A DNA stretch of 64,000 nucleotides, taken from Nitrospinota bacterium (lineage in GTDB: Bacteria; JADFOP01). The position numbers and the translations under genes are program-made. The stretch spans positions 6,120-70,119 of the forward strand of contig JADFOP010000007.1 of NCBI GenBank assembly GCA_022562795.1. The letters run 5' to 3'. Position 1 is the stretch's first letter. The number at the start of each line of letters is the position of its first letter. The notes beneath the pieces are model-generated. The model was not told where the DNA came from. It made no database searches and was given only the letters and a program-made list of their open reading frames with translations. Of this stretch, positions 1 through 19,013 are shown one piece after another.

Positions 1-1122
1 ACAGGCCCTGCGGGTGACGTCGGCGGCCTTGCTCAGATTGAGAGGACGGAGGTGATGGGCCACCACCCGGCTTAGGAAGGTCTTCGCCCGCCCGCCCAGG
101 CGAAGCCGCCTCGATATGGCTTTGACGACCTCCGCTCCGACCTCCGCGTGGCCGAAAAAGTGGACCTCGCCGGCGGGGTCCACCGTATGGGTGGCCGGCT
201 TGCCGACGTCGTGCCAAAGGGCCGCCCACTTGGTCAGGGCCCGACGGGTGATATTCGCCCCCATTGGCTCAGCAAGGTGGACCTCCAGGTATTCGGATTC
301 CTCCGGAAGCTCCTTATTCAGGCGCCCGAAAGCCTCCTCCAGATGGCGAAGGGTCGCCAGGGAGTGGGCCCACAAGGTAGAGGTGTGGTGACGGCCCTGC
401 TCAAGCCCCACCATCGAAGGCTGCTCCGGCACGAGGACCTCCAGCAGCCCAATCTGGTGCAACTCCTCGATCCACGGCCAGACGGTCTCGACCGCAAGAA
501 GGGCGAAGAGCTCCTCCCGGACCCTCTCCCCGGCCACTTCGGCCAAGCGCTCGGCTCGTTCGGCGATTGCCTCCCGGGTTTTCCCCTCAATGGAGAAATC
601 GAGCTCAGCCGCCAACCGCACGGCCCGAAGGAGCCTGAGAGGATCGTCGTCCAGCACCCCCGGCGCCGGCGCCCTGACGAGCCGGGCCCGAAGGTCATCC
701 AGCCCACCCGTAGGGTCGAGAACCTCGAGGGGGCGGGCCGTGGGCTGAAAGAGGTCTTTGAGCGAGACGGCGAGAGCGTTAACGGTGAAATCGCGCCGAC
801 CGAGGTCCTCGCCCACCGAAGGGGCTCTGAGGCCCGCTACATCGATCTCCCGCCGCTCCCCTCCCTCCCCCACCACAACCCTAGCGATTTGGCGGTCCTC
901 ATCGAGGGCGACGAAGCTCCCTCCCAGGGCTGCAGCCACCCTCCGCGCAAAGCCGAAGGGATCGTCGGGGACGAGGAGATCTATCTCCAGCGGTCCCGGC
1001 CGACCGCGGAGGGTATCGCGGATCGCACCGCCCACGAGCCACCCCTCCGCCCCGTCGGCGACGAGCCGGCGGGCGACCGCGACGAGGAGCTCGTCGTCTC
1101 CCAGGCGCTCTAACTCCTTCAT
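1..1122 (-). CDS. cca: CCA-adding tRNA nucleotidyltransferase / poly(A) polymerase family, HD-type (C-terminus cut by window edge)
   Basis: Adds or repairs the 3' CCA end of tRNAs in the cytoplasm. The frame is open from ATG at 1122, preceded by GGAGAGG, to base 1, so 374 codons are visible and the C-terminus is missing. Class II nucleotidyltransferase motifs occur in order: VGGAIRD (the GGxxRD nucleotide loop), LEIDLLV (metal-binding position), RRDFTVNALA, then DDDPLRLLRAVRLA. A C-terminal HD domain follows with LWHDVGKP and FFGHAEVGAE. The first metal-binding carboxylate reads Glu (E-I-D) where the family normally has Asp (D-x-D). The five tRNAs near 30 kb appear to encode CCA, so repair rather than first synthesis may be the main task. 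The next gene upstream is the lipM-like gene, 68 nt away on the same strand. Confidence 0.9.
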   Translation of the reverse strand, partial: MKELERLGDDELLVAVARRLVADGAEGWLVGGAIRDTLRGRPGPLEIDLLVPDDPFGFARRVAAALGGSFVALDEDRQIARVVVGEGGERREIDVAGLRAPSVGEDLGRRDFTVNALAVSLKDLFQPTARPLEVLDPTGGLDDLRARLVRAPAPGVLDDDPLRLLRAVRLAAELDFSIEGKTREAIAERAERLAEVAGERVREELFALLAVETVWPWIEELHQIGLLEVLVPEQPSMVGLEQGRHHTSTLWAHSLATLRHLEEAFGRLNKELPEESEYLEVHLAEPMGANITRRALTKWAALWHDVGKPATHTVDPAGEVHFFGHAEVGAEVVKAISRRLRLGGRAKTFLSRVVAHHLRPLNLSKAADVTRRAC

Positions 1123-1190
1123 GGCCTCTCCGTAAATGGCGGTCGGGGTAGTATAGCGAAAAGGGAAGGCTTATGCAGGGGGAGGCAGGC

Positions 1191-2015
1191 TCAGCGACGG
1201 TGCGTCCAGGCGGGGTCGGCGTACTTCTCTGCGGCCAGCGACTCGGCAAGGGCGCTCTCCTCCAGGCTGAGCTTCCCCTCCTTAAGAGTCACACCCAGAT
1301 GGTCCTCAACGCCCTGGACGAGCGCTGAGGCCACCTTCTCCCAACCCAGCCTGCGCCCGGCCACCTCGCCGAGGCCCGCCATCTCCCCGCGCCACCGGGC
1401 GATGAGGGCATCCTCGCGGCCTTCTTCCTTTTCCTCCGGATGCAGGCAGCGGTAGAGCAACGCGAGGTCGAGGGTCAACGGGAGGGAGCCGTGCTGGAGG
1501 AATGCGCGGCGGCTTCTGCGCTGAGCGCTGCCGAGGACCTTTCGGCCGTCCACCATCAGCTCATAGCTCGCCGGGACGGCGAAGCAGACAGGTGTCCTCG
1601 CCCGAAGGGAGCCTGGCTTCCGGGGAACGAGGGCCGCGGCGAGGCCGAGCTTCCCAAGCCCCACCGCGAACGCCTCGGTGACGGTCCGATATACCTCCAG
1701 CAGGTCCTGCCAGCCGGGGAAGGCCCCATGGCGGGCCGCTAGGCTGTAGGTGACCTCGTCGTCGTGCAGGACCGCCTTTCCGGCCGTCGGCCTTCGGACG
1801 AGGTCGATCCCCTCCGCGGCCAGCAGATCGGGATTGACGCTCGACGCCGATGACTGACCGAAGCCCAAGGAGACGGCGGGGGGCGCCCACCTGTAGAGGC
1901 GCAAAGTCGGGGGGCCCGGGCTCGCCTCGACAGCCCGGAAGATGGCCTCATCGACGGCCATATTCCAGGCGCCCGGGGCGGGCCCGTCAATCAAAAGACG
2001 CCATTCTTCTGTCAT
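1191..2015 (-). CDS. LipM-type octanoyltransferase / lipoate-protein ligase family protein
   Basis: Family members attach octanoyl or lipoyl groups to the acceptor lysine of lipoyl domains, LipM acting mainly on GcvH. The 274-residue protein has the BPL/LplA fold signature: NMAVDEAIF near residue 18, RRPTAGKAVLHD near 74-85 (variant of RRxTGGGAVxH), and CFAVPASYEL followed by DGRKVLGSAQRR. Cys144 lies where LipM has its acyl-thioester cysteine and Lys159 is the conserved lysine. It reads in the same direction as, and ends the run of, the glycine reductase genes, whose first member near 8.5 kb is a GcvH. I infer that this enzyme lipoylates that GcvH. The ATG start lacks a clear ribosome binding site. 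LplA activity instead of LipM cannot be excluded. Confidence 0.8.
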   Translation of the reverse strand: MTEEWRLLIDGPAPGAWNMAVDEAIFRAVEASPGPPTLRLYRWAPPAVSLGFGQSSASSVNPDLLAAEGIDLVRRPTAGKAVLHDDEVTYSLAARHGAFPGWQDLLEVYRTVTEAFAVGLGKLGLAAALVPRKPGSLRARTPVCFAVPASYELMVDGRKVLGSAQRRSRRAFLQHGSLPLTLDLALLYRCLHPEEKEEGREDALIARWRGEMAGLGEVAGRRLGWEKVASALVQGVEDHLGVTLKEGKLSLEESALAESLAAEKYADPAWTHRR

Positions 2016-2115
2016 GGGAATTCAACGATTGGTGAGAGAAGGCAAAAGCCGGCAATCAATCCGGGTAGAATCGAGAGCCGCAACGGGCGCTCCTCGGCAT
2101 CGAAAATAAACCCTA

Positions 2116-3294
2116 TCAGATGACCGGCCCCTCATCGGGTAGGAGTCGCGCGCCGATAAGCTTCCCGACGGCAGCCGTCACGTCCTCAGGGGCGACCATA
2201 ATGACGGCGCCGGAGCAGCCCATGCCGCTTGTCGAGTAGATGCCGGCCTTCGATAGACAGCGGACGGCGTCTTCAATCTCTAGGACGTCCACCCCTCCAA
2301 TCGACTCGGAGACGGCCTTAGGCTTAGGCTGAACTACGGGTTCGCCGGCTTCCTCCGTGGATGGTCTTACGAGCTCCTCAAGGATGGACTCCAGCCCTGC
2401 CGCCTTCGCCGCCTGGAACTCCTCCAATACCCGCTCCGGCAAGCGGGCCCGGACCATCTGGGCGATAAAGGCCACCGCCCCGGCAATTACCTCAGCACCG
2501 GAAGCCCTAGAGATAATACCGATAATCCGCTCAAACCCCTCTCCTACACCCGGGCCGTAGCCGAAACCGAAGGCCTCGTAAGAGCCGCCCGTGGTGAAGG
2601 CGCTGAAGAGCTTGACCAGCAGGTTCCCCGTAAGTGTGTCGCAGACGAGTACGTCGGCCGTCCCCCAGAGGCAATCGTTTCCCCTAAGAAGGGGCCCGCC
2701 GTCGGCCCGGATACTCTCAGCCAACCGGATTGGGTACCCACCGGCGGCCAGTGAACTCACGGCACGCTCGACCTGCCGGGCCCCGTCCACCGTGCAGAGC
2801 CCCACCGACGGGTCATCCCATCCAAGAGCCCGAGCCACAGCCCGGCCCAACAAGACGTTCTTGACCATGGCCCCCACGCGGTGGGAGTCGGCAGCCCCCG
2901 TGCACGAGGCGACGAGCATCTCCTTGCCGCGACCAGGCGTCACCACGCGGCCAACCGTAGCGACACCCATTGGAAAGGGGTAATGGAGGGTCACGGCGGC
3001 GTCTAGACGCCCATCCTCCAGGGCCTCTTCCAACGCTGCGTGGCCGGCCTCCTCGCTCTCGACGGCAATCGTGGGGAGGTCCGTGCCTCCCTCGGAACCT
3101 ATGACTACCACCTCGAGGGCATCGTCCCGGCTGGCGGCGAGCTCCGCTCCGCGGATGGCCTCCTCAGGCCCAAGCTCGCTCCCAATAGCGGTCAGCCCTA
3201 CCCTGACGAGCGGCGTTGTAGCCACCCCCTCTACCGCATCGGCGACCTCGGCCAAAACCTCGCCGACCATCCTTCTCAGGCCATCGGGACTCAT
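2116..3294 (-). CDS. grdD: Glycine reductase protein C, subunit alpha (GrdD)
   Basis: GrdD is the PlsX-like subunit of protein C, which phosphorolyses the enzyme-bound acetyl thioester to give acetyl phosphate in the last step of glycine reduction. The 392-residue protein matches the family in length and motifs: DAAVTLHYPFPMGV, VASCTGAADSHR, the glycine-rich GFGYGPGVGEG, and a C-terminal SGMGCSGAVIMV. Cys360 in that last motif corresponds to the thioester cysteine of characterised GrdD. Its ATG overlaps the stop of grdC by four bases (ATGA), which indicates translational coupling. It is the last grd gene of the cluster. Confidence 0.93.
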   Translation of the reverse strand: MSPDGLRRMVGEVLAEVADAVEGVATTPLVRVGLTAIGSELGPEEAIRGAELAASRDDALEVVVIGSEGGTDLPTIAVESEEAGHAALEEALEDGRLDAAVTLHYPFPMGVATVGRVVTPGRGKEMLVASCTGAADSHRVGAMVKNVLLGRAVARALGWDDPSVGLCTVDGARQVERAVSSLAAGGYPIRLAESIRADGGPLLRGNDCLWGTADVLVCDTLTGNLLVKLFSAFTTGGSYEAFGFGYGPGVGEGFERIIGIISRASGAEVIAGAVAFIAQMVRARLPERVLEEFQAAKAAGLESILEELVRPSTEEAGEPVVQPKPKAVSESIGGVDVLEIEDAVRCLSKAGIYSTSGMGCSGAVIMVAPEDVTAAVGKLIGARLLPDEGPVI

Positions 3295-4841
3295 AGAGCG
3301 CCCCCCTCGCCCAATCGTTCCGCCACCTCCCGGAGGGCCTCGGCCACCATTCGGCGGACCTCCTCTTTCGCAAGCCGGGGCTCTTCGGGCTCGGGGCGCC
3401 CGCCGTTCTCCTCCACGACGAACGAGAGCCCGTCGAAGAGGTTCGTCATCCGGCCGAGAAAGAGGCTCCCCTTACCGATCACCATAACCCTTCGGAGGCG
3501 ACCAGCCAGGATGTGGTCGCGGGCCGGCCCGAGATAGGGCACCCCCGAGGGGATATGGCCCTGCGTGGGGGCATAGCCGGGAAACCCATGGCGCGCGACG
3601 AAGGCGGGGAGGTCTTCCCGAGCAAGCTCGCCCCTCATGACGGCTAAGGCCCCGATTAGCCTTAGGTTGTTGTCGGTCACGTCCCCGGCCCCGGCCGGCA
3701 CGGTGACCTCCGGGTTCTGGAGCTCCGGGGCGAACTTATCGACGTCGGCCACTTTAAGTCCGGCCCTACTCAGCGGCTCGGCGACAATCGCTTCGATGAC
3801 CTTCTGGGGCGCGGCGGCAAGCCCGATTGTCTGGCGGCCCACCATATCGGTGCGGATCCACGGGCTCACTCCATCGTCGGCCGAAACCAGAACCGCGAAG
3901 GCGCCTAGCACATCTTCGAGCACGGGCAACCCCTTCTTGACGTGGTCCTTGCCGTTCATGCCCAGCTTGGCCACGCTCCCGCCGCCGACCACGGCCACCG
4001 AAGAGAAGACTCCGGCCTTGACGAGGCTCGCCGCCACCACAACCGAATGGACCGGGGCGGCGCAGAAATTGCGCAGGTCCGAGCCCGTGGCGTTAACGCA
4101 TCCTGCGAACTCTCCTATTGCCTTGGCGAAGTTCCCCCCGCCTCGCTGGTTCATGTCGCCGCAGGCCTCCTCGGAGCACTCGATTAGGTATTCCACGCTG
4201 GCGGGCTCCACCCCGGCGTTCACAAAGAGTTGACGGAGCACCATGACCGCCGAGGCCTTCGCAACGAGGTTCTCCAAAATCACGTGGGCGGTGAGGTTCG
4301 GGTCGAACTCGTGAGCCCTCTTGACGCAGCCCACGAGCTTTCCCCCCTGCCGGAGGGCCTCGGCCCTGCCCTCTTCCACCAGGGCGGCCACGGCCTCAGG
4401 CTCCTCACCCTCGCCGAGCCGCTCCAGATCCTCACTGCCAGCCATAGGATGGGACTTCAAAGCATCCCCGACATCGGCGGTGAAGGCCCGGGTGAGCAGA
4501 ACGAGATCGAAGGTATCGACAATCTTCATCCAGGCCAAGAGCTTCGCCTCTGGCCAAATCTCCCCGTATTTGCCCGTCCGGGGGGCCTTGGAGATAGGGT
4601 TCTCAAGCCACGGCTTTTGCCCCTCGCCGAGCTCCTCTGGGGTGAGGTTCCCGATGTAGGTCTGGTTCGGCGGATAGGCGAGGACCTCTTCGTAGGTCCT
4701 AAGGGACTTTTCCAAATCCCGGAGGTAGGCGCTGTCCGGATCGAGGCGCCTCTCCACTGTCTGGGTCGATCCGTGGTCTCTGAGAACAGAGGGGGCGTGG
4801 ATAAGGCTGTAAGCTGTTCCACGGAGAACGGGGAATGTCAT
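3291..4841 (-). CDS. grdC: Glycine reductase protein C, subunit beta (GrdC)
   Basis: GrdC is the FabH/thiolase-like subunit of protein C. It takes the acetyl group from selenoprotein A and works with GrdD to release acetyl phosphate. The 516-residue length fits the family. Family landmarks include the start TAYSLIHAPSVLRDHGSTQ, the segment AYPPNQTYIGN, a ketoacyl-synthase-like core with ECSEEACGD and GSDLRNFCAAPVHS, and GKGSLFLGRMTNLFDG near the C-terminus. A good ribosome binding site (GAGGAG) precedes the ATG, 44 nt after grdB. It overlaps grdD by four bases. Confidence 0.93.
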   Translation of the reverse strand: MTFPVLRGTAYSLIHAPSVLRDHGSTQTVERRLDPDSAYLRDLEKSLRTYEEVLAYPPNQTYIGNLTPEELGEGQKPWLENPISKAPRTGKYGEIWPEAKLLAWMKIVDTFDLVLLTRAFTADVGDALKSHPMAGSEDLERLGEGEEPEAVAALVEEGRAEALRQGGKLVGCVKRAHEFDPNLTAHVILENLVAKASAVMVLRQLFVNAGVEPASVEYLIECSEEACGDMNQRGGGNFAKAIGEFAGCVNATGSDLRNFCAAPVHSVVVAASLVKAGVFSSVAVVGGGSVAKLGMNGKDHVKKGLPVLEDVLGAFAVLVSADDGVSPWIRTDMVGRQTIGLAAAPQKVIEAIVAEPLSRAGLKVADVDKFAPELQNPEVTVPAGAGDVTDNNLRLIGALAVMRGELAREDLPAFVARHGFPGYAPTQGHIPSGVPYLGPARDHILAGRLRRVMVIGKGSLFLGRMTNLFDGLSFVVEENGGRPEPEEPRLAKEEVRRMVAEALREVAERLGEGGAL

Positions 4842-4885
4842 GGAGAGCTCCTCTGTACCCTTACGGGCCCCAACCTCATCGTATC

Positions 4886-6232
4886 TCAGGCTGTCTGGCT
4901 CACCAATTCACCACCCATCTCGAAGACCGTTTGGACCTCGATGGGCGTCTCGAGCGCCCTTAGGGCCGTCTCCACGAGGCGGCGACGGAGGGCCCGCTCA
5001 TCCTCCAGTGACAAGGTAGGGTCGCCCAAGGGGTGAGGGATCGCGATGGCCGGGATGATTCGGTTGGCCCCCACAGTCTTGGATATGGGAACAATGGAGA
5101 CGATGTGAGCTACTGGAATCCCAATCCTTTCAATCTCTTTGACTATCGTTGCCCCGCAACGAGCGCAGGTTCCTCACGTGGAGACGAGGAGGACTGCGTC
5201 GACTTCGCCCTCCTCTAGCTCCTTGGCGATTTCCTCGCCGAAACCTTTGGCATTTTTGACCGCCGTGCCGTTGCCCACAGTGGAGTAGTAGAAAGGATGG
5301 ATATCCCCGATGATGCCCTCATCCTGGAGCTGACGAATGGTATCTATCGGAAGGACTCGGTCCGGGTCTTCGTTGGCGTACCGGTTATCGTACCCCCCGT
5401 GCACCGTCTGGTGGCTCTCGCCCGTTAGGTCGTTCACCCCATCTAGGCTGTATCGACCGAACTTCGTGGCGTTGGAAGCCTCAATACGGTCGGGGTTGCC
5501 ATGAGGGACGATGCCTCCGGATGTGACCAGCGCCAGCTTGATTGTTGAAAGATCGGTGATGGCCGGTGGAGGATCAATTCGATCGAACACAGGCATCGGG
5601 TACTCGGTGACGAACGGTTCTCCCCGCATCTTCGCCAGCAGCATATCGACCGCACGCCTCGCCCCCCGCTCGCTTCGCTGGATGTTGACTCTCAATCCAC
5701 GGGGCAGATAACCCTCTTCTTCGGGGCTTCCGAGCGACTCCCCACGGGCGAGCTTGAGCCCCAGGCGCGTCATCGTCGCCACCGCCTCGCGCATGCCGGC
5801 GGCGGAGTCCTCCGTCGGAACGATATAAGCGCTCTTGCGGTAGAGCTCCTCCCCGGGGTTCTCCTCGTACATCCCCGTCACCGCCGGCAGGCCCAACGAT
5901 TCCACAGCCAGCTCGCAGACGGCCCCGCAGGCCACCCCATATCGGCCCGCGTTGAAGGCGGGCCCGGCGATGAGGAGGTCGGGGCGAAAGGCCTCAATCA
6001 ACCCCCTCGCCTCTTCCTGGGCGGCGCAGGCATTGGCCGCAAAGTAGTCGTCGCCGCAGATAACGGTCCCGACGATCTCGGCGGCCTCTCCGAAGGCCTC
6101 CTGGAAGGCGAGGCCGGGGCCTACAAAACCATCCCTGGTAGTGAAACCGACCCCCGCCTGCTCCTCGCCGCCCAGTTGTCCGAAGAACTGATTGAGGTAG
6201 TGCACGACCCGTATTTTCGTGCTCCCGCTCAT
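4886..6232 (-). CDS. grdB: Glycine reductase protein B gamma subunit, selenoprotein GrdB (TGA at 5174-5176 read as selenocysteine)
   Basis: GrdB is the selenocysteine subunit of the substrate-binding protein B. Its selenolate attacks the Schiff-base-bound substrate and passes a carboxymethyl group to protein A. Conventional reading would stop at TGA 5174-5176 after 352 codons. Reading on in frame gives LLVST-U-GTCARCGATIVKEIER and GANRIIPAIAIPHPLGDP, the conserved end of GrdB, to a stop at 4886. The full product is 448 residues with the U353-x-x-C356 motif, the usual GrdB size. GGGGAGG precedes the ATG by 7 nt. A hairpin suitable as a bacterial SECIS follows the TGA. GrdF and GrdH (sarcosine and betaine reductases) are close relatives, so the substrate is inferred from the single grdE and grdB set. 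Confidence 0.95.
5146..5162 (-). promoter_or_regulatory. SECIS-like hairpin of grdB
   Basis: On the coding (minus) strand a perfect 7-bp stem, TCGTTGC with GCAACGA, closes a GGG loop. It begins 11 nt after the Sec TGA, which puts the loop guanines 19-21 nt downstream of the codon. Bacterial SECIS elements present a loop G to SelB at roughly this distance. The hairpin lies inside the coding region at the residues after U-G-T-C. Assignment rests on position and structure only. Confidence 0.65.
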
Positions 6233-6253
6233 TCTACATCCTCCCCTCTGTTC

Positions 6254-6718
6254 TCAGTGCTTGGTTAAATCTCCCCGGATTCGGCTCACCGTCTCTCCGA
6301 TCTCCTCTACGGGGAGCACCATCTCCATCATGGCGATCTGCTCCTCGTAGATGGAAGAATCCACGGCAGCCTTAAACTCAGGCTCCAGGACGTGATAGAC
6401 GCGGAGCCCCAACTGAGCTCCAGCCAATGGACCCACATAGGTAGGGTCGCCCGCCGTCACCGTCTCGGCGTTGACGGCCACGGCCCCACCATCCGCCCCG
6501 CCAAGGATGACGACCAGCTTGTCAGCTCCATGCTGCTCAGCGATCTCCTTGATCCGGGCCTGGTTCTCTAGGTCCATCGTCCCAGCAGCCGTTCAGACGA
6601 AACACTCGGTGGCTGAGAAAACCACCTCGGCGCCGGCGCCTTTAACACACGCCTCGATGGCGGGCGCCGGTATGCCATCTCGATCACCGATGACGATGAC
6701 CTTTCTCTCGTTGAACAT
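6254..6718 (-). CDS. grdA: Glycine reductase selenoprotein A, GrdA (TGA at 6593-6595 read as selenocysteine)
   Basis: Selenoprotein A is the small carrier that takes the carboxymethyl group from protein B, forms a selenoether and delivers an acetyl thioester to protein C. The start [20 protein letters not shown] matches the family N-terminus and has AAAGGAGG just upstream of the ATG at 6718. The frame meets TGA at codon 42 in the context [17 protein letters not shown], the invariant GrdA selenocysteine site. It continues through [19 protein letters not shown] and [10 protein letters not shown] to the stop at 6254. Total 154 residues, normal for GrdA. Without Sec readthrough the product would be a useless 41-residue peptide. 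It sits 31 nt after grdE and 21 nt before grdB. Confidence 0.95.
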
Positions 6719-6749
6719 GGACCCTCCTTTCATCTGCAAGCTCTCTCCA

Positions 6750-8039
6750 TCACATGCCGATCGCCGAGAGCCGTTCGTATCCCAAGATGTTTGTAGCCCC
6801 CACGATGGCCTGCAGCTCCACCGTGATTGAGCCGTCATCCGCCAAGCAACCTGCATATCCGCCAGCCAAAACGTCTGCGCTCTCTATATGCCCGATTATC
6901 CGCTTCATGGGAGGCAGGGTGATCGTCGCATTTGCGTTTCCGGACGAGACCACCGCATCGGCCAGTTTGCTGGCATCGACAAGGCTCTGAGAGGCGCCGT
7001 CGCGGCCAGCGAACTCATCGGTCATCAAGACCGTCCTGATGCCCCGCTGCTCAACCTTATTGCAAATCATAATGAGGTCGGTGTCGGGGTTGCCAAAGCC
7101 CTCTTCAGAGATGATGGCGCCGTCGACGCCGAGCATCCCAACGAGCTTGGCCGCATAGTCGCTGGAGCGCTCCTTATCGGCGAGGGTGACGTTCTCGTTG
7201 GTTATGATCACGCCCACAAAGTTGAGCTCCTCGCCATGGCGCTCGTAGAGCTCCTCGATGACCGGGTTGTTCAGGTGGTGATAGGTCGTATTCTTGTCAC
7301 AGGCCGACACGCAGTTGCCGCTGACTATGGCTCCGTCCATGGCCTCCGTCGGGCTTATTATGCTCGGCAAAATGGTCTTCGCATCGACGCCGTATACGTA
7401 GGTATCGTGAAGGAGCCCCTGGCTCTGGAGCATGTAGACGAAGGCGACCTTTGGGAGCCCAGGAAAAGCCGTCAGGGCCTCAGACAAAGCAGGCGCTTCG
7501 TAGCCGGCCACCTCGTCTGGAGAAACTTCGCGCGCGGCCTCGCCCAGGTAAGCCGCCGCCCTGAGGCCCGCCAGCCGAACGGCCGTCTCTTTTTCGCTGG
7601 GCGCGATATCGTCCTTGAAATCGAACAGCAGGACGATGTTGTGGAGTTTCGAGAAAGAGGAGAGTTCCGCCCCAGGGCCCTCCATGTCGATGATGCCTTC
7701 CTGGAAGGCGATGATTTGACTTACAGTGACAACAGCGCAACCCTTTAGGGCCAGGGTCCTGCCGCTTCCTACGGTCTGAACCCCCGAGACGAAGCCCGGG
7801 AAGACCCCTCCGGGTCCGTCCACCTTCACCCTGGGTTCGATTACATCTTTAACCGGCATGATGCGGGTGGACTCCCCCGGGTGGGCGAGCTCGACTCCGA
7901 CGCCGAGGATGCGGTTGTCGTCCCCTTGAGCCTGGCGGCAGAGCTCTTCCCGGTCGATGATGAGCGTCCCGCCGATCACCTGAGTGTTGTCACCAAACTG
8001 GACATCTCGGATGTAAACCTTTCCTACCTCTAAGCGCAT
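6750..8039 (-). CDS. grdE: Glycine reductase protein B proprotein (alpha and beta subunits), GrdE
   Basis: GrdE is made as a proprotein and cleaved into two protein B subunits, one with an N-terminal carbonyl group that binds the amine of glycine as a Schiff base. The 429-residue product carries [16 protein letters not shown]; in characterised homologues cleavage occurs at the Asn-Cys bond, here Asn242-Cys243. Other landmarks are [18 protein letters not shown] near 43, [21 protein letters not shown] near 100 and the C-terminal [16 protein letters not shown]. The ATG overlaps the grdX stop by ten bases. Paralogues GrdG and GrdI act on sarcosine and betaine; no second copy is present here. Confidence 0.94.
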
Positions 8040-8428
8040 GGATTGTCTCTCCCATTTGAAGTGGAATGAGAAGGGTGGAGGCGTCGAATGCCTGTTGAAA
8101 GGAGCTCGAAATCTATTGCCTGAAGGCCTGCCGTCACCCGCTCAGGCGGGGACGGCGGGGGTCCGAAACCCCGGAGCGCCTCCAGAGCGTTCTCGAGCAT
8201 CGTAATGGAGGTGGGTTCTCCGTCGCCACCAGGGCGAGCGCTGAGGACGAAGGAGCGGAAAAAGGCCTGACTCGGCCTAAGGTTTCCGAGCTTTGGGTGG
8301 AGAAGAAAGCGGTGCCCCTTATGGACGGCGTCCCTGACGACCTCCAAGACGTTCATGGGCGGTCCCTCGAGCAGGCGGGCCTCGGGGTAGTGTTGGAGGA
8401 CAAGAGGGTTGTTAGTGAAGATCCGCAC
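8030..8428 (-). CDS. grdX: GrdX family protein
   Basis: GrdX is a small protein of unknown biochemical role that usually opens clostridial grd operons. The 132-residue product shows the family pattern: N-terminal IFTNNPLV, then EGPPMNVLEVVRDAVHKGHRFLLHP, and LGNLRPSQAFFRSFVLSA. It starts with GTG at 8428, with GGCGG five bases upstream, and its end overlaps the grdE start. Its place directly before grdE is the same as in Clostridia and supports the identification of the whole cluster. Confidence 0.85.
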   Translation of the reverse strand: MRIFTNNPLVLQHYPEARLLEGPPMNVLEVVRDAVHKGHRFLLHPKLGNLRPSQAFFRSFVLSARPGGDGEPTSITMLENALEALRGFGPPPSPPERVTAGLQAIDFELLSTGIRRLHPSHSTSNGRDNPCA

Positions 8429-8481
8429 GGTTACCGCCGGAAAGGTTTCCAGGAAAAAGGCGCACCGGTTTGTAAGCGCGG

Positions 8482-8865
8482 TTACTCCTCTTCGATAAGG
8501 CTCTTGTACTGCTCAGCCGTCATCAGGTTTTTCAATTCGGCGTCATCGGCGATAGCAACCGCTATCATCCAGCCCCCGCCGTAGGGGTCGCTGTTAACGA
8601 GCTCCGGCCCATCCTCCAGAGCCCCATTGACTTCCAGAACCTCGCCCGAGATTGGCGCGTGTAGGTCGTTGACCGCCTTGAGCGATTCAACCACCCCAAA
8701 CGAATTCCCTTCCTCGACATTATCGCCGAGCGCGGGAAGCTCAACATAGATAATCTCTCCGAGCTGGTCTTGAGCGTAGGCTGTAATCCCAACGAAACAC
8801 TTTCCATTTCGATCCCGTGCCCATGTGTGTTCCTGGCTATAGAGCAGTTTTCCGGGAATTTCCAC
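8482..8865 (-). CDS. gcvH: Glycine cleavage system H protein
   Basis: H protein carries the lipoyl arm that shuttles the aminomethyl group in the glycine cleavage system. The 127-residue product has the full family pattern: HTWARDRNGKCFVGITAYAQ, GEIIYVELPALGD, the lipoylation motif VVESLKAVNDLHAPISGEV with Lys63 as acceptor, and YGGGWMIAV. The start is GTG with a weak ribosome binding site. No gcvT, gcvP or lipoamide dehydrogenase gene is nearby, so this copy seems dedicated to the grd cluster in which it is embedded, 53 nt before grdX. A role as redox or carbon partner of glycine reductase is inference only. Confidence 0.92.
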   Translation of the reverse strand: MEIPGKLLYSQEHTWARDRNGKCFVGITAYAQDQLGEIIYVELPALGDNVEEGNSFGVVESLKAVNDLHAPISGEVLEVNGALEDGPELVNSDPYGGGWMIAVAIADDAELKNLMTAEQYKSLIEEE

Positions 8866-8883
8866 TTAAGCGTAATTTTTCAC

Positions 8884-9528
8884 CTACTTTATCCAACGGA
8901 GCATAGTCTTGAAATCATCCGTGCCGACCCGCTCCAACATTTCGAAACAAACCATCTCGGTGGACTTGATTAGAGCCCCGGCTTGCCGGGCCAGAGCGAT
9001 GCCGGCTTTACAGTCCTCCTCTCGCCGGGAGATTACGGCATCCTCCACCACATGGCAGACGTAACCTCGATGAATCAGATCGAGGGCCGTCTGGAGCACG
9101 CAGACATGGGCCTCCGCTCCAAGGACCACGAGGTCGGTGGCGCCGGTCTGTGAGATCGCCTCCAGCGTGGGAGCGTCTATCCCCGCCGAGAAGGTATCCT
9201 TGACCAAGGGCTCGTAGACGGGCAATGCCTCTGAGACGGTCTCCTCGGTTGGGCCGAGCCCCTGAGGGTACTGCTCGGTGACGAGGATCGGTACGTTGAA
9301 AGTCTTGGCCAAGGCGATGAGCTTATGGACGTTGACCAGGCGCTCCTTGAGAAGCTGTTGGTCCATGGCTTTGATGAGGTTCGCCTGAAAATCGATGATA
9401 ATGAAGGCGCTTCGCTCGGAAGATATGATAAAGGGGTGACGGTCCATGGACGGCGGGTCCCCCTCAGGGATTAGGGCTGGCGTCGGCGTTCCAGGCGAGG
9501 CAGGGATGAGAAGCTCTTTTCTTCTCAT
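8884..9528 (-). CDS. Isochorismatase-like cysteine hydrolase
   Basis: Members hydrolyse amide or vinyl-ether bonds of small molecules such as nicotinamide, N-carbamoyl compounds and isochorismate. The catalytic triad is visible: Asp in AFIIIDFQ, Lys in EPLVKDTFSA, and Cys in GAEAHVCVLQTALDL, with the cis-peptide region just before the Cys. I start at ATG 9528 because GGAGGAGGAG lies about nine bases upstream; the longer open frame has no such site. The length is 214 residues. It precedes gcvH by 18 nt on the same strand and may be cotranscribed with the grd genes. The substrate cannot be told from sequence. Confidence 0.85.
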   Translation of the reverse strand: MRRKELLIPASPGTPTPALIPEGDPPSMDRHPFIISSERSAFIIIDFQANLIKAMDQQLLKERLVNVHKLIALAKTFNVPILVTEQYPQGLGPTEETVSEALPVYEPLVKDTFSAGIDAPTLEAISQTGATDLVVLGAEAHVCVLQTALDLIHRGYVCHVVEDAVISRREEDCKAGIALARQAGALIKSTEMVCFEMLERVGTDDFKTMLRWIK

Positions 9529-9580
9529 AAATGTATCTCCTCCTCCGGGATCTGTCAACTGGTTTTTTCGTCCTCCGGCC

Positions 9581-11701
9581 CTAGGATGACCCGCTTGGGG
9601 GAGGGAGAACCACCACGTGGTCGCAGACCGACGCGACCGCCTCGTGGTGAGTGAAAAGAATGACCTGGCGCTGCTGGGCGATGGAGGAGAGCAGCTTCAT
9701 GGTAGCCCCGAGGCGCCTTTCATCAAAGGAGCCGAACGGCTCATCGAGCAGCAGCGGTGTCCGCTTATTGCCCGCCAATAGCTCCGTCAGCGTCAGGCGG
9801 GCAGCCAAGAGAAGCTGCTCGGCCGCGCCGAAACTAAGCTCCTGGGACCTCACGAAATCCTCCCGCTCGGGACCCAGCACTTCGAGGGCCGACAGGGTCG
9901 TCCCCAACCTGACCTCCGTATATCTCCCCACGCTCATTTTGGACACATAACGGCCGAGAATCTCCTGAAACCGTTTCGCGGCTGGCCCTATCGCCGCCTG
10001 GCGAGACTCCTCCAGGGCGGTTTTGGCCAACTCTCGCACCTGAAGGCTCCTTCGGTGACGATTGAACTCGCGTTCGGCCGCATCAATGGCCTCCTCCAAC
10101 TCGGCCAGGCCTTCGGACTGATCGAATGAGATCTCGAGTATCGTCATCAGGCGGTCAACCTGCTTCGTGAGCTTGTCCCGACTGACAGCGAGTTTCTCAG
10201 ATTCCATCCCAATTTCCGCAAATTTTTCCGGATCGAGGGCCGGCCCGCCGAAGCGCTCCTCACTCAATCGCTCCTCTAAAACGGCCATCTTCCGTAGAAG
10301 CTCACTCCGCTCCGCCCCTAGGGCCTCCGCAGACCGTCCTCCGAGCAAACCTTCGCGTTCGCTGAGAAGTCTCTCCCGCTCATCCCTGATGCGGGCCGCC
10401 TTCTCGGCCCGGCGGAGAGTCTCTTCGGGCGAGGTCACTCCCGCCCGGTGCGAGAGCTCGCCGAGCCTCTCTTCCACCTCCTCCAGCTCCGCCTCTCGCC
10501 TGGTCGCCTCAGCCCGACGGTCACCTAGCACCCGCCTTGCCACTGCTCTGCGGTACCAGAGCCAGGTGGCGACGGCCAGGGCAACGGCCCCCAGAACCGT
10601 TGCCCCTAGTTTCAGCCAAGGGCTCACCATGCTCGGAGCCAGCAGAGCAGCGATGCCTAAAACTCCCAAAAGCGCCTGGCCCCAGAGGCTCGGAACGGGC
10701 GTATCCTTGAGGGCTTTCCGGGCCTCTTTAAGCGAGGTGGTAAGGATGTCGCGACGTTCCAGCGCCCCCCGTAGCGCCGTGAGGCCTCCGGCCTCAAGAA
10801 GGGCAGCCGAGCCGAGCCCCTCGAGGGCCTTATCGGCCTCCCGGACTCCCTGGGCGTTTTTCTCAAAAGCCCAATGCCGCCTTTCGATTTCAGAATACCG
10901 CTCTTTGTGCTCATTAAGAGAGTCCTGGAGCTTCCGACGTTCGGTCTCAACGGCCAGCAGGGACTGCTTCGCATCGAGGGCGCCTGCAACCTCCAAGAGC
11001 TCCCGTTCGGCGGCCTTCAGGGCTCTTTGGTCCGAAACCCTCTGGGCGTAGATCAAAGCCACCTCTCTGTATCGCCCCTGGAGGCTTGCCAGCCGCTCCT
11101 CGGCCGCCTTAATCGGGCCGGGGGTCTTATAGGCCTTATCCTTCAGGCCTATAGTTAAGTTCTGAATATTCTTGTCGAGGAGCTCGATGGCCCGTTCTGC
11201 GCCGCCTCCTTCTCCTCCGCCGGTCATCGCATTAGCCAATGCCTCCTCCAGGGCCTTTCGACCCTTTCCTCGCTCCGGCAGGACGAGCTGGCCCTGGGCC
11301 ACAGCGGCCGATGCGGCGAAGACCTCTGGGGTCTTCATGCCGAGGAGATCCTCGATTTGGCCGAGGGCCGACTTGGCATCCCGCCATACCTTTCCCGTCG
11401 GCTGCTCTTCGAGGAGGATCTCCTTGCTGTGGAAATCCTTCCAGAGCCGATAGTTGAGATCGCCTGAGCGGAAATGGAGTCGGATGGCGAAGGGCCTCTC
11501 GTCGCCCCAGGCGTAAAGCGAACGGACCTCCTCCCGCGAACTCTTTGGGTCCCAGAATAGGGCTGCCTCCAAGGATTTAAAGATGGTGGATTTGCCCGAC
11601 TCGTTTGGGCCCACGACGGCGTTGAGCCCCGGCCCGAAGTTGCAGGCAAAGCGTGGGGAGAAGCGCCGCACCCTCTCCAGCTCCAGCCGCTCCAGAATCA
11701 C
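9581..11701 (-). CDS. SbcC/YhaN-like AAA family ATPase with internal membrane segment
   Basis: An SMC/Rad50-like ATPase presumed to work with the phosphoesterase encoded just upstream in DNA end processing. The 706-residue protein has Walker A GPNESGKST near residue 33, long coiled-coil stretches, the ABC signature LSFGAAEQLLLAARLTL and Walker B PLLLDEPFGSFDERR near the C-terminus. Around residues 335-385 two strongly hydrophobic stretches predict a membrane hairpin. Canonical SbcC lacks this, but YhaN-type proteins have it. It is shorter than E. coli SbcC and has no zinc-hook CxxC. The GTG start overlaps the stop of the phosphoesterase by four bases. Confidence 0.85.
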   Translation of the reverse strand: MILERLELERVRRFSPRFACNFGPGLNAVVGPNESGKSTIFKSLEAALFWDPKSSREEVRSLYAWGDERPFAIRLHFRSGDLNYRLWKDFHSKEILLEEQPTGKVWRDAKSALGQIEDLLGMKTPEVFAASAAVAQGQLVLPERGKGRKALEEALANAMTGGGEGGGAERAIELLDKNIQNLTIGLKDKAYKTPGPIKAAEERLASLQGRYREVALIYAQRVSDQRALKAAERELLEVAGALDAKQSLLAVETERRKLQDSLNEHKERYSEIERRHWAFEKNAQGVREADKALEGLGSAALLEAGGLTALRGALERRDILTTSLKEARKALKDTPVPSLWGQALLGVLGIAALLAPSMVSPWLKLGATVLGAVALAVATWLWYRRAVARRVLGDRRAEATRREAELEEVEERLGELSHRAGVTSPEETLRRAEKAARIRDERERLLSEREGLLGGRSAEALGAERSELLRKMAVLEERLSEERFGGPALDPEKFAEIGMESEKLAVSRDKLTKQVDRLMTILEISFDQSEGLAELEEAIDAAEREFNRHRRSLQVRELAKTALEESRQAAIGPAAKRFQEILGRYVSKMSVGRYTEVRLGTTLSALEVLGPEREDFVRSQELSFGAAEQLLLAARLTLTELLAGNKRTPLLLDEPFGSFDERRLGATMKLLSSIAQQRQVILFTHHEAVASVCDHVVVLPPPSGSS

Positions 11702-12849
11702 TCCAGTACCCCCTCTCGCCCATCGAGCAAGGCCAGGCCTACCTGTAACGCCTCCTCCACGACACGCCGCTCATCATCGCCTTTGGCTGAGCCGAGGCGC
11801 TTTGCCATGAACCGGACGAATCGGCCGGCCACCGTGGCCTCAGGATGGCGGTCGAGCGCCTCCGCCTCAAGGCGAGAATGCGCGCCATCCGTTATGCGCA
11901 AAAAGTAGAAATGGGGCGCAAGGACCTCCTCCATCTCTTCGAGCGTGTGGGTCGTCCAGGAGCAATCGAGGGGTTTCAGACCAATGAGCCTGACGTCGAG
12001 CATGCTGTCCGGGTCGGCCAGGCTGCGAATGGCCGCCTCAAGAGTTGAAGCCTCGGGATGCTCCTCAATCGACAGGGTGAGGTTTTCGGTCCGACACCGG
12101 CCCACTTCTAGGGACTCGACGACAGTCTCTTGCTCATTGATGGTGACCAGGAGCACCCGACCGGCCCCGGCATCTTTGGGATACAGCACCTCCGGGGAGC
12201 CGCAATACCAGGCGGTTACCCCGCCCCGGGAGTAGTCGGCCGGTTTATGCCAGTGGCCCAACGCCAGGTAGTTGAGGCCGCTCGAGGCAATCTCCCCCGG
12301 TGCGATTGGGAAGTCGCCCTCCCCAAGCAGGTCGCCAAGCGCCACCGAGCCGTGGGCCACGCCGACGACGAGCCCCTCTCGCCCCTTACCATTCACCCCT
12401 CTCATAGGACTCTCCGGCGAGGCGTTGGTCGTGTTGGGCCGGGCAATGAGGGTCAGCCCTAAAGCGGGAATCATCCGCTCCACCACTTCCTCACCGATGA
12501 GGAGCTGGAGCCCCGGGACTTTCTCTTCAAAGGGCACAAGCCGCCAAATCGAGTCGGGCCCATCGTGGTCGTGAGTTCCGGGGGCCAGGGCTACGGTAAT
12601 CCCCGCCTCTCCCAGACGTCTAAGCTCCGCCAGGGCTAGCTCCACGCTGCCCTTAGACGGGGCCGCCGAGTCGAAGAGGTCTCCCGCCACAAGAAAGAGA
12701 TCCACCCGGCGCGACAGCGCCTCCTCCGCCATTCGCTTAAAGGTCTCCGAAACCTGGCGCCGGTGGTCTTTGCCCCTGGGCCCCAGGTAGGGGAAGGACG
12801 CCCCCAGGTGGACATCCGCCGTGTGGAGCAGGGTTATGGGTCGGCCCAT
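11698..12849 (-). CDS. SbcD/Mre11/YhaO-type metallophosphoesterase
   Basis: Predicted DNA exonuclease subunit partnering the ATPase encoded directly downstream. The 383-residue protein has the calcineurin-like metal motifs in order: HTADVHLGASF near residue 9, LVAGDLFDSAAPSKG near 53, APGTHDHDGP near 90 (GNHD-type motif with Thr for Asn) and LALGHWHKPADYS near 197. The C-terminal part is the variable cap. It starts 12 nt after the helicase-nuclease gene and overlaps the ATPase start by four bases, so these genes form one transcription unit. It is closer in layout to YhaO than to E. coli SbcD. Confidence 0.87.
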   Translation of the reverse strand: MGRPITLLHTADVHLGASFPYLGPRGKDHRRQVSETFKRMAEEALSRRVDLFLVAGDLFDSAAPSKGSVELALAELRRLGEAGITVALAPGTHDHDGPDSIWRLVPFEEKVPGLQLLIGEEVVERMIPALGLTLIARPNTTNASPESPMRGVNGKGREGLVVGVAHGSVALGDLLGEGDFPIAPGEIASSGLNYLALGHWHKPADYSRGGVTAWYCGSPEVLYPKDAGAGRVLLVTINEQETVVESLEVGRCRTENLTLSIEEHPEASTLEAAIRSLADPDSMLDVRLIGLKPLDCSWTTHTLEEMEEVLAPHFYFLRITDGAHSRLEAEALDRHPEATVAGRFVRFMAKRLGSAKGDDERRVVEEALQVGLALLDGREGVLE

Positions 12850-12861
12850 CTTTCTATCCCC

Positions 12862-15837
12862 TCACGTTGAGGCCGTGGCCGTATAGGGGCAGACCTCGTT
12901 GTAGGCGCAGAAGCGGCATGCCTGGAATGTGGGTGTGGCCTCGTAACGGCGGGCCCGAATGCCCCGGGCAGCCTCGTCAATTTGCTCCTCTACCGCGGCA
13001 AGCTCCTCGTCGGTCTTCACCGCTCGGCCCACCAGGCCGCTCTCTAAAAAGTGGAACTCCACGGCATCGGACAATCGACCGAAGGCGGAGCGATAAGCCA
13101 TAGCGTAGATGGAGAGCTGGAGGCTCTTAGCCGCCTGCTTGTCTGCCTTAGTCTGCTCACGGACCTGGGAGGACTTAAAATCAATGATGACCGCCTCTTC
13201 GGGGGTCTCGTCCACCCGATCCCAGCGGCCGACGACACGTGTGGTCCCAAGCATGAAGCTGAACTCCTTTTCAACTAAGGTCGGCCTCCTGCCCCTAGCC
13301 TCCTCGTCGGCGAAGAAGCGCTGGAGAGTCCGGCGGCCCTCGTCCAGACGGAGCTCTTCGTGCTCCAGGGTCAAGAACCCCTCGCTCGACCACGCTCCCT
13401 CGAAGGCCCTGATGAGGTCGTCCGGCTCCACAGGGCGCCCCGCCGCTTTGCGGCGGTTGTATTCGGCCACGCCAGCGTGGATTGCCGTACCGTAGGCGAC
13501 CGCATGGTGCCGCAAGATAGGCACCCGTAAGATATTGACGTACTTGTACTTAAGCGGACATGTAAGGTAATCGTCGATCTGCCTGAAGCTCAGCTTGATG
13601 ACCTCATCATCGGGAATCGGGCTCAGGGCCACCGGCTCTGCCGTCTCACCGGGCGCGTGCTGTTGAATGGCCTCCAAGGGATCAACCCGGGTGACGGCGA
13701 CCGTGTCGCGCGCAAGGTCGAGGGCTTCGAGAACGAAACGGCTCACCTTCCTGCGGCGCACCCCCCCGTAGTCCTCGGCGCTGGTCAAATGTAGCTCGTC
13801 CCTGGCCCTCGTCATTCCCACGTAGAAGAGGCGGCGCTCCTCTTGAATATGAAAATCCCCCTCGGGCAGGAGGTCTTTCACCAGGGCGTCGGGCAGCGGG
13901 ATGGCCTCCGAGCGCCGGGACCATGGAAAACGCCCTTCTACGAGGCTCACCAAAAAAACGACGGGAAACTCCAAGCCCTTGGCCCGATGGACGGTCAGGA
14001 CGTTGACGGCGTCGGCGTCAGAGTCGGCCTCGGCTGTTGCGGGGTCATCGCCCGCTTCCATCAGAAGGTCCAGGTGTTTGACGAACTGGGGCACCCGGTT
14101 TTCCCTGAGAACCCCTTCGGCGCTACGTACGATGTTGAAGAAGCGAGCCAGGTTGCCGAGCTCCTCCTCGGCTGAGGCGGAGGCGCGGCGGGCCAAGCGA
14201 CGTATCCAGCCGCTCTCTTGGAGAAAAGCGTAAAGGACCTCGCCCGGAGACCGCCTTAGAGCGAGCTCTACGTAGCCCGAGAGGTCTTTGAGGAGTTCCG
14301 CGATCGTGGCCCTGCTCTCATGCGAGACCTCCTCCAGATTAGGCTCCGCCTCCAGCCGCTCTAAGATGGTATGGAGAGGCCGGTTGATCCGCTTCGCATA
14401 GTTCATGCACCTGGAAAGGTCTACGGCTGAGAGGCTGTAAGCCTCGGAGCTCGCCAGATAATAGAGGGCCATGGAGTCGGTCACGTCGGCCACGGCGCGA
14501 AGGAAATTGATGGCCATCCGCACCTCCGGGCGTCCATAGAGGCCCCGGGTGCCGCTAAACCGGTGCGGGATGGCCCTTGCGTTTAAGGCTCGTATGAAGG
14601 GGTCGGCGTTGTTATTGGAGCGGACGAGGATAGCGAAGTCCCTGTAGCTAAGCTCACCCCCCTCAACAGCCTCATCAATGGTGCGGGCTACGAAGTCGCT
14701 TTCGGACGAGAGGGTGTCGAAGTTGTGGTGACGGATAGCCGCCCCACCGCCCCGGCCGGCGACGATGCGTTTGTCCACCCCCTGCCTGACCTCCAGCCGG
14801 TCGGGGTCGTTGTGGCGGATGAGACGGTAGGCCCCGTCGAGGATCGGCTCGTAGGAACGATAGTTTTCGGCGAGGACGACGGTCGTGGCCTCGGGGTAGT
14901 GGTCCATGAAGCCTAGGATGTTGCTGATGGCCGCCCCGCGAAACTTGTAGATGGACTGGTCGTCGTCGCCAACGACGGTCACGTTGCGGTGGCCCGCCGC
15001 CAGAAGCTTCACAAGCTCGAACTGGCCGTAGTTTGTATCCTGAAACTCATCTACCAGGATGTAGCGGAAGCGCTCTTGATAGGCCTGGAGCGCCGTCGGG
15101 TGCGTCCGAAGAAGTGCCAGGGGGAGGGCCACCTGGTCGCCGAAGTCTATGCACCCGGCCTCGGCCTTGAGCTCGTAATAGGCGGCGTAGGTGCGGGAGA
15201 GCTCGTCCTCGCGCCGGGCCGACTCGGCGAGGGCCTCGTCTTCGGGATTTGCGGCGCTTTGCCCGCGAAGGCCCTCAGCGTATTCGAGGTATTCATCGGG
15301 CGAGACGTCTTCGTCGCGGCATCGGCTGAATAAGGTCACCAGGGCCTGGAGGTAACGGGTGGGGTCCCCCAGCGGCCGAAAGTAATCCAGAGGAAGCCTA
15401 AAGAGGCGTTCTTTGAGGAAGATGACCTGCTCGGCCTGCGTCATCAGGCGGACGTCGGGGGGTAGGCCGAGCTCCAGGGCGTGTTCTCGGAGCAGCCGGT
15501 CCCCAAAGGCATGGAAGGTCGAAATCGAGACGTTGGTGAAGCCGTACGGCAGCAGAACATCGACCCGCTCCTCCATCTCGGCGGCGGCCTTCTCTGTGAA
15601 GGTAAGGGCCAAAATCTCCTCTGGCCGGGCCCGCTTGGTGGCGATGAGGTGGGCGATTCGGTGCGTGATGACGCGGGTTTTGCCCGTCCCGGCCCCGGCG
15701 ATGATGAGCAGCGGGCCCTCGCCGTGCGTCACCGCTTGGAGTTGGGCGTCGTTGAGATCGGCGAGGGTGCGCTCCTCGGCGGGGCTGACAGGAGCGGTCT
15801 CTTCAGCCACGTTCATTTCCTTACCGCTTGGACACAT
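12862..15837 (-). CDS. UvrD/Rep-family helicase fused to a RecB-type Fe-S nuclease
   Basis: A 991-residue superfamily 1 helicase with a C-terminal PD-(D/E)xK nuclease, probably acting in recombinational repair. Helicase motifs: [17 protein letters not shown] (I), [13 protein letters not shown] (II), [15 protein letters not shown] (III), [17 protein letters not shown] (V) and [17 protein letters not shown] (VI). The nuclease begins near residue 745 with [15 protein letters not shown] and continues with [19 protein letters not shown] and [11 protein letters not shown]. The distal [12 protein letters not shown] with the upstream Cys gives the four cysteines of an AddB/RecB-like iron-sulfur clamp. 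ATG 15837 has GGAGAG five bases upstream and lies within the end of the mpg gene. Confidence 0.9.
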
Positions 15838-16402
15838 ATGGGCTCTCCGCCAGATAGCACCGCCAGGGCCTCTCCGTGGCGTGGCGGATGCCGATGCGGC
15901 CCGTCCATACGACCTCAGCCTCCGTTGGGGGGCGATCCTGGTAGATGTAAATAGGCCCCGCCGCGAGGTCGGAGCCGTTTTGAGCCTTGGTGATGCCGAA
16001 TGCCTGAGTGAGGCGGGCCGGGCCGCTGGTCAGCAGACGGACGTTTTTTGCGCTGCCGCGGCGGGCCGCCATGAGCTCCAGGCCCTCCAGGGGCTCGACC
16101 GCCCGAATGAGAACCGCCGCCGGAAAACCCTCTGGCTCGGTTACGGCATTTAGAAGGTAGTGCATTCCGTAGGTGAAGTAGACGTAGGCAAGCCCGGGCG
16201 GGCCGTACATGATTCCGTTTCTGGCCGTCCGGCCACGGGAGGCGTGGCAGGCGGGATCGTCCTCGCCTATATAGGCCTCGCACTCAACGATGCGTCCGGA
16301 CACCCTCCCCTCCTCCGTCTCATGGACGAGAACCGACCCCAAGAGCCCCTCGGCCACCTTGAGAGTCTCCCCCTGGTAAAAGGAGCTAGACAATTGCTTC
16401 AT
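15821..16402 (-). CDS. 3-methyladenine DNA glycosylase (AAG/MPG family)
   Basis: Base excision repair enzyme that removes alkylated purines. The 193-residue frame from ATG 16402 fits the family: [19 protein letters not shown], the active-site region [48 protein letters not shown], and [12 protein letters not shown]. The Glu in VECEAY is the expected catalytic acid. A TTG ten codons upstream would lengthen the frame but has no better ribosome site. Its end overlaps the helicase-nuclease start by 17 bases, which puts it first in the repair block. Confidence 0.9.
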
Positions 16403-16574
16403 GCGAGATAATCCAGCGACTGCCGGAGGCAATGTAAACCAGCGAGCCGCAAGCTGGCCCCCGCCTAGAGGAACATCTGCTCATCGGATAGCCTGTCGCT
16501 AACTATAAGTATTTTCAAAATCTTACCACCTATTTTTTCGTAGATTCCTTGAAGCGCTGGCGTCTCCCCCACAA

Positions 16575-17150
16575 TCAGGCCAGCGGCTCGTAAACGAACT
16601 GCCGGCCTCCTTCCTCGAGATGAGCCTCCCGGCGGGCCATAATACGCAGCTTGTAGCCGTTGAAAAGCCGAGTGGAGGCCGTAGTAAGCTCGATCCCCTC
16701 AAGGGTCGCCAGGTGGCGGGCCGTCAAAGAACCACGTTCATGGAGATTCCGGAGCGTCTCCAGCAGATAGGGCTGAAGAACGCCTACGAGCCCCAGCTTC
16801 CCGCCGTCGAAAACCTCCACGATACATAGCCTTTTGCGCTCAAGAGCGACTTCGATGTTCTCCCGCTTGGTGAGATCCAAGCCCTGCAGGCGAAGGAACT
16901 TCTCACCGTATTCCTGGCCCTGGAGTCGAGTGATGAGCTTGGCGACGACCTCATCTGCACAGGAATAGTCAATGATACCCACCGCTGAGAAGTCGAGGGT
17001 CACCATCGTGCGTGGCCCCAGGCTTCGCAGGCGCTCCTCAATCATCTCCCGCACCGAACGACCCGTCTGCCGGGTTACAAGATTGTTAGAGGCGCCTTGT
17101 TCCTGGGAGAGCTTGCCCAGGTCGATGTCTACGCTAATCAGGGCCGACAA
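16575..17150 (-). CDS. STAS-like domain protein (DUF4325 type)
   Basis: The central part, GRSVREMIEERLRSLGPRTMVTLDFSAVGIIDYSCADEVVAKLITRLQ across residues 30-77, is split here only for description: it has the shape of a STAS-like domain with the characteristic LDFSxVxxIDYSCADE strand-loop. Such domains are found in proteins of partner-switching and phage-defence type contexts, but no function is fixed. The C-terminal 100 residues are unassigned and may hold a winged-helix-like fold. An AT-rich upstream region with a 20-bp near-palindrome (17231-17250) and a TATAAT box suggests specific regulation. It is not tightly linked to neighbours. Confidence 0.6.
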   Translation of the reverse strand: MSALISVDIDLGKLSQEQGASNNLVTRQTGRSVREMIEERLRSLGPRTMVTLDFSAVGIIDYSCADEVVAKLITRLQGQEYGEKFLRLQGLDLTKRENIEVALERKRLCIVEVFDGGKLGLVGVLQPYLLETLRNLHERGSLTARHLATLEGIELTTASTRLFNGYKLRIMARREAHLEEGGRQFVYEPLA

Positions 17151-17230
17151 TATTTAATATTCTCCATTGAGTTATATGCTACAATGTTTTGTATTATATA
17201 TGAATACCACGATTACTATAGATGGTTTCA

Positions 17231-17250
17231 ACGTTTTCAATTGAAACCGT
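17231..17250. promoter_or_regulatory. 20-bp near-perfect palindrome in AT-rich region upstream of the STAS-like gene
   Basis: The arms ACGTTTTCAA and TTGAAACCGT match at nine of ten positions, and a second overlapping inverted pair GGTTTCAA / TTGAAACC spans 17224-17248. This is a typical repressor or activator site. A minus-strand TATAAT lies near 17197-17202, between the palindrome and the STAS-like start, with no good -35 hexamer, which would suit an activator-dependent promoter. The rest of 17151-17482 is AT-rich and holds no convincing gene. Confidence 0.4.
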
Positions 17251-17482
17251 TTCCCATTCTAGAGGGTCCCTATTTATATGTCAAGGGAAGAAATGAAAAA
17301 AGTTCGTCTAAATTATGAAAAGCGGAAAAATCGTACCAATCACAGCTTAGTGGAGGGGATGATTATGAAAATGCGGCCTACCGGTTGGTGTCAGACCTCG
17401 GAGGCAATGGGAGTGCGGGCCCGAGGCGGTGTGACCCAGAGCTCAGCCCTTCTCGCCCTGCCGCCGCCTCTTGTCACCTCCG

Positions 17483-17953: not shown

Positions 17954-18018
17954 GAGCAAATACCCCATGGAGTAAATGTCGTACAATCAAAGATGATAGT
18001 CAGAAAATGCAATTCAAA

Positions 18019-18047
18019 TTAATAGAGCATTTGCTGAAGAATGTCAA
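18019..18047 (-). promoter_or_regulatory. Sigma-70-type promoter of the Lrp/AsnC gene
   Basis: On the minus strand TTGACA (18047-18042) and TATTAA (18024-18019) are separated by exactly 17 nt. Transcription would begin near 18012, giving a leader of about 60 nt before the ATG at 17953. Confidence 0.6.
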
Positions 18048-18135
18048 GGGATGGAGTACGAATAAGGTAAAAATGGCGAATAAAAAAAACCGATAGGCTC
18101 AAATTACCAAAAAATGTTAGCCCATAGAGGGGCTC

Positions 18136-18999: not shown

Positions 19000-19013
19000 T
19001 CGTATTCTACTCC

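Follow-up and report, generated by a model that had tools for sequence, protein, structure and literature searches.

The question raised by this 64,000-nucleotide stretch of DNA (the window; positions 6,120 to 70,119, forward strand, of contig JADFOP010000007.1 in the Nitrospinota bacterium assembly GCA_022562795.1) is why gcvH, the gene for the H protein of glycine cleavage, should stand at the head of a set of glycine reductase (grd) genes, and what this position says about how the reductase obtains its electrons. We think it reasonably likely that grdXEABCD was exchanged in place for gcvPA-gcvPB within a gcvT-gcvH-gcvPA-gcvPB-lipM locus, with gcvT lost, GcvH and LipM retained to handle lipoate, and a thioredoxin system encoded elsewhere supplying the electrons. 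On this view the odd gene order is best read as a left-over of the swap and not as a new route for electrons; what we infer in this account are the direction of replacement, the electron source, and the role of GcvH as a lipoate carrier.

From 8865 to 2116 on the minus strand, gcvH-grdX-grdE-grdA-grdB-grdC-grdD run unbroken with intergenic spacing of −10 to +53 bp, and directly behind grdD lies a lipM-like gene that the preliminary description of this DNA had missed. The genome was searched family by family with profile models, using curated NCBIfam cut-offs for the Grd, GcvH, and TrxB models and the Rfam gathering score for the selenocysteine (Sec) insertion element, SECIS:

8482 to 8865, minus strand: gcvH, GTG start, 127 aa (TIGR00527, 152.6 bits against a cut-off of 115.85); the only GCV_H match in the genome
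8030 to 8428, minus strand: grdX (NF038093, 78.7 bits against 40)
6750 to 8039, minus strand: grdE (PF09338 over its full length, 658 bits; under the exception cut-off for sarcosine GrdG)
6254 to 6718, minus strand: grdA, selenoprotein gene with an in-frame TGA read as Sec (NF040748, 239 bits against 130)
4886 to 6232, minus strand: grdB, selenoprotein gene with an in-frame TGA read as Sec (TIGR01917, 619 against 602)
5136 to 5173, minus strand: SECIS element of grdB (Rfam SECIS_4, RF01990, 46.9 bits; gathering score 38)
3291 to 4841, minus strand: grdC, component C beta subunit (NF040746, 733 bits against 450)
2116 to 3294, minus strand: grdD, component C alpha subunit (NF040747, 494 bits against 350); its junction with lipM is shared with a congener
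1191 to 2015, minus strand: lipM-like octanoyltransferase gene, 274 aa (PF21948, 118 bits; LipM-type Cys144)

The single in-frame TGA of grdA corresponds to U44 of the translation, within CFVU, so that a CxxU motif is present, and that of grdB to U353, within VSTUGTCARC. SECIS_4 lies immediately 3' of the grdB TGA; 3' of the grdA TGA there was no match to any SECIS model. GrdB lies above the glycine-specific TIGR01917 cut-off and below the exception models for sarcosine (GrdF) and betaine (GrdH) reductases, the GrdF/GrdG and GrdH models all staying under cut-off at 632/800, 592/780, and 508/775. Compared with the published GrdB motif (PMC9751293), it has two mismatches in AHGGxD[QTAP], V for A and N for [QTAP], and it does not match the sarcosine GrdF motif. 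Judged by its genes, the locus is a complete predicted selenocysteine-dependent glycine reductase operon, grdXEABCD. The seven-gene run, its identity as a selenoprotein glycine reductase operon, and the lead position of gcvH with neither trxA nor trxB in the operon, all claimed in the preliminary description, are confirmed. In a promoter and terminator scan, promoter-like sites were about as frequent as in shuffles, terminator-like sites fewer, and one weak terminator-like hairpin lies between gcvH and grdX at 8480 to 8461; the scan does not establish co-transcription of gcvH with grd.

The host is non-clostridial and belongs to a rare, little-studied phylum, represented by three genomes in our comparison set. 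Its assembly (G000; 2.15 Mb, 84 contigs, 97% complete) was compared with that of a relative in the same class and another family (G001) and with that of a congener (G002; 85% complete). Of 386 genomes sampled across the domain, 4, this one included, contain a GrdE match with E below 1e-190, and the nearest named grd loci are those of Clostridia, with GrdE identities of 61-66%. Two lytic transglycosylase-domain proteins are encoded in the window, which fits the diderm setting proposed earlier.

Synteny bears directly on the position of gcvH. The upstream flank in the window comprises these genes:

8884 to 9558, minus strand: isochorismatase-like hydrolase (PF00857, 94 bits), at the gcvT position of G001; not evidently a member of the system
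9581 to 12849, minus strand: sbcC-like and sbcD-like genes, a conserved flank; their G001 homologues are arranged alike
16575 to 17150, minus strand: STAS-like gene without a Pfam match, a conserved flank, with 49% identity over 186 aa to its counterpart at the corresponding site in G001

The G001 order, all on one strand, is STAS - PHP - sbcD - sbcC - gcvT - gcvH - gcvPA - gcvPB - lipM. The window reads STAS - (DNA glycosylase, UvrD) - sbcD - sbcC - isochorismatase - gcvH - grdXEABCD - lipM, its flanks on the same strand and in the same order, with grdX-E-A-B-C-D at the site of gcvPA-gcvPB; besides the STAS-like gene, GcvH (54% identity) and LipM (36%) can be aligned between the two loci. Thermacetogenium phaeum has the order gcvT-gcvH-gcvPA-gcvPB-(lpd)-lplA (PMC12674515), the same arrangement with lplA last, which makes the G001 order likely to be ancestral. 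A short contig of the congener carries grdD-lipM-cca, its lipM 70% identical to that of the source genome, so the grdD-lipM junction is a feature of the genus older than the split between these two genomes and not a binning artefact or chimera. gcvT is gone from the window locus, and GDC-P, the product of gcvP, had no match in either the source genome or the congener. The G001 synteny thus explains the adjacency of gcvH and grd without a functional tie. The organism appears to have exchanged glycine cleavage, which yields CO2, NH3, and methylene-tetrahydrofolate, for glycine reduction to acetyl phosphate and NH3. Pseudogene remnants of gcvT, gcvPA, and gcvPB were sought in window positions 1-20000 and none was found, all tblastn matches having E above 0.2.

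Had gcvH instead come in as part of a gcvH-grd operon already formed in a donor, the two would be contiguous, as they are, and the lack of an identified donor also leaves room for this reading. Against it, GcvH is nearest to the GcvH of G001, and its place between sbcC and lipM is that of the G001 gene; in a survey of 83 grd loci besides the window, 44 of which had 5 kb or more of sequence on either side of grdE, gcvH was near grd in none. This makes a joint arrival very improbable, and the gcvH-grd order is not a common one. The grd genes themselves would have been transferred into the genus, as their absence from G001 and the in-place exchange suggest, and glycine reductases outside Firmicutes have been described, some of them spread by horizontal transfer (PMC9751293). 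The source of the transfer was sought in trees of GrdE and of concatenated GrdE+C+D (one outgroup row, in the wrong frame, was disregarded); the window stands on a long branch in both, with no well-supported partner, and no donor was identified. The GRDB match in G001 (L003) was rejected as a glycine reductase: the protein is short and GrdB-like, and its gene belongs to no grd operon.

How, then, is GrdA re-reduced? Among the glycine-type loci, 54 extend far enough upstream to be judged; both trx genes accompany grd in 46 of these, 7 more carry one (trxA only in six, trxB only in one), and a single locus has neither, so a grd locus without trx is not unprecedented. If GcvH were a working part of this reductase, Lpd would reduce its lipoyl group to the dihydrolipoyl form, which would then re-reduce GrdA, a task that in Clostridia falls to a grd thioredoxin of a dedicated type (PMC10880999). 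That trx usually accompanies grd, that gcvH heads a cluster from which trxB and trxA are missing, that Lpd is encoded, and that GcvH seems no longer to serve glycine cleavage (see below) would all suit this idea. Set against these points are a synteny that by itself accounts for the adjacency, at least one clostridial locus (L067) that lacks trx and lacks gcvH as well, the absence of gcvH from every other grd locus surveyed, and a thioredoxin reductase gene (TrxB; TIGR01292, 388 against 343 bits) elsewhere in the genome. We therefore hold a working role for GcvH in the reductase to be improbable, and the particular chemistry of lipoyl-GcvH as thiol donor, a glycine reductase running on lipoate instead of thioredoxin, to be more doubtful still. 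Of the two possibilities for the electrons raised in the preliminary description, that the trx genes lie elsewhere gains support from trxB, and for electrons passing via GcvH nothing speaks beyond the adjacency that the synteny explains.

The sequence of GcvH is informative in this context. Its lipoylation lysine K63 is kept, in ESLKA, and the protein is lipoylatable by this measure, with 54% identity to the GcvH of G001 and at best 49% elsewhere (in a plasmid collection). In an alignment with 12 comparison GcvH, position 14 is Thr in the window and the Glu of the HEW motif in all 12, and among the positions invariant in those 12 the window departs only there and at Val39 (Ile). In the pea H protein, Glu14 contacts the aminomethyl-lipoate intermediate. 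With K63 kept and Glu14 lost, GcvH seems to have been released from glycine cleavage yet retained as a lipoyl protein. Both this loss and the missing GDC-P, for which a gcvP check had been proposed, contradict the earlier suggestion of a flow of one-carbon units by way of GcvH. A decaying gcvH, left over without present function, would also be expected to show such changes: GcvP is gone, gcvT is gone from the locus, and the GcvH branch is longer than that of G001 (0.75 versus 0.24). The frame is intact, however, and K63 persists, as do almost all of the invariant positions. Old as the grdD-lipM junction is, preceding the split from the congener, the protein has stayed above the GcvH cut-off, and we regard simple decay as unlikely.

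Retention of GcvH as a lipoyl protein is consistent with the gene at the other end of the operon. The window LipM consists of the lipoyl ligase A/B catalytic domain only and has Cys144, conserved in all three genomes, where archaeal LplA has Ser; by comparison with Bacillus subtilis LipM, we take this residue to be the LipM-type Cys. It is the single match to PF21948 (the LplA/LipB catalytic family) in the source genome, and G001 has two, the second LipB-like and near the pyruvate dehydrogenase (PDH) genes of G001. The source genome encodes LipA, PDH E1 alpha and E1 beta, a lipoate-dependent E2, and Lpd, so protein-bound lipoate is needed, and GcvH and LipM were probably retained as a source of lipoate for another enzyme. 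GcvH serves B. subtilis as a lipoate hub, and LipL transfers the lipoate from it to E2 (PMC7253636). Bacteria with LipM, LipA, and lipoyl domains and without LipL are known and unexplained (PMC10332631), a class into which this genome fits.

Under the proposed scheme, glycine would be bound by GrdE/GrdB, the GrdA selenol would become Se-carboxymethyl-GrdA, GrdC/GrdD would release acetyl phosphate, and GrdA would be re-reduced by the thioredoxin system encoded elsewhere. In parallel, LipM would octanoylate GcvH and LipA would insert sulfur, after which the lipoyl group would pass from GcvH to PDH E2, unless LipM also octanoylates E2 directly.

Several observations weigh against an in-place swap with retained lipoate machinery. 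No LipL-like transferase was found in the source genome, leaving the GcvH-to-E2 step without its enzyme, and GcvH would be dispensable if LipM acts on E2 directly. The flank similarity to G001 is low for SbcD (25%) and SbcC (22%), and the GcvH tree is unresolved. At 97% and 85% completeness of the source and congener genomes, gcvP could in principle be missed; the absence of gcvT applies to the locus, the rest of the source genome not having been searched separately for GcvT, and the thioredoxin system elsewhere is represented by TrxB. The Sec machinery that the preliminary description looked for is there in part: tRNA-Sec with anticodon TCA is found in all three genomes, the source included, and selA-selB are adjacent and intact in the congener and in G001, but SelB was not found in the source assembly by family search, probably through an assembly gap.

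Some other features of the window may be recorded here. An Lrp/AsnC-type regulator gene (17483-17986, minus strand) lies about 9 kb upstream of gcvH; Lrp regulates gcv in Escherichia coli. A transporter of the sodium:neurotransmitter symporter family (38297-39799, plus strand) is a possible importer of amino acids, perhaps glycine. A stretch of low GC content at third codon positions (GC3) holds genes for an RHH antitoxin-like protein and, next in order, a toxin of the PemK/MazF family (22808-23524, plus strand) and is adjoined by an IS1595-family transposase gene (20699-21619, plus strand), and a pyruvate kinase-like gene (44227-45669, plus strand) has a GC3 of 0.49, compared with about 0.75 in many neighbours. 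Four tRNA-Ser genes (GGA, CGA, GCT, TGA) and one tRNA-Arg gene are clustered at 29788-30358 (minus strand), and a HEAT-repeat protein of 1318 aa (49146-53102, minus strand) matches PADLOC HEAT models.

What is new here is the arrangement, the enzyme itself being already known. If the exchange took place as we propose, the locus shows plainly how one glycine-degrading system can take the place of another and leave the H protein behind, and it would caution that gcvH beside grd need not signal a functional link. It also widens the known range of glycine reductase, now to include a rare diderm phylum and a genome with a PDH complex as well, and provides a natural test of the question left open in PMC10332631, how dehydrogenases are lipoylated with LipM and LipA and without LipL.

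With the clostridial operon grdX-trxB-trxA-grdE-grdA-grdB-grdC-grdD of Clostridioides difficile (PMC10880999) and Acetoanaerobium noterae (L184), the window shares the six grd genes, their order, and Sec in GrdA and GrdB; it differs in lacking trxB and trxA, in having gcvH in front and lipM behind, and in its host. With the two-subunit glycine cleavage operon gcvT-gcvH-gcvPA-gcvPB-lplA of G001 and T. phaeum (PMC12674515), it has in common gcvH and a lipoate or octanoyl transferase gene at the same places, and flanks as in G001, whereas grdXEABCD stands for gcvPA-gcvPB and the isochorismatase-like gene for gcvT. The LipM-GcvH-LipL relay of B. subtilis (PMC7253636) is matched by a LipM-like protein, GcvH, LipA, and lipoate-dependent PDH, but here in a diderm, with no LipL-like gene detected and Glu14 of GcvH lost. 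The acs cluster of A. noterae contains a GcvH gene (L185, 3001-3372) with HLW for HEW, so that Glu has been lost outside a glycine cleavage operon there too; as in the window, the gene lies beside another pathway, although its neighbours are acetyl-CoA synthase genes and not grd.

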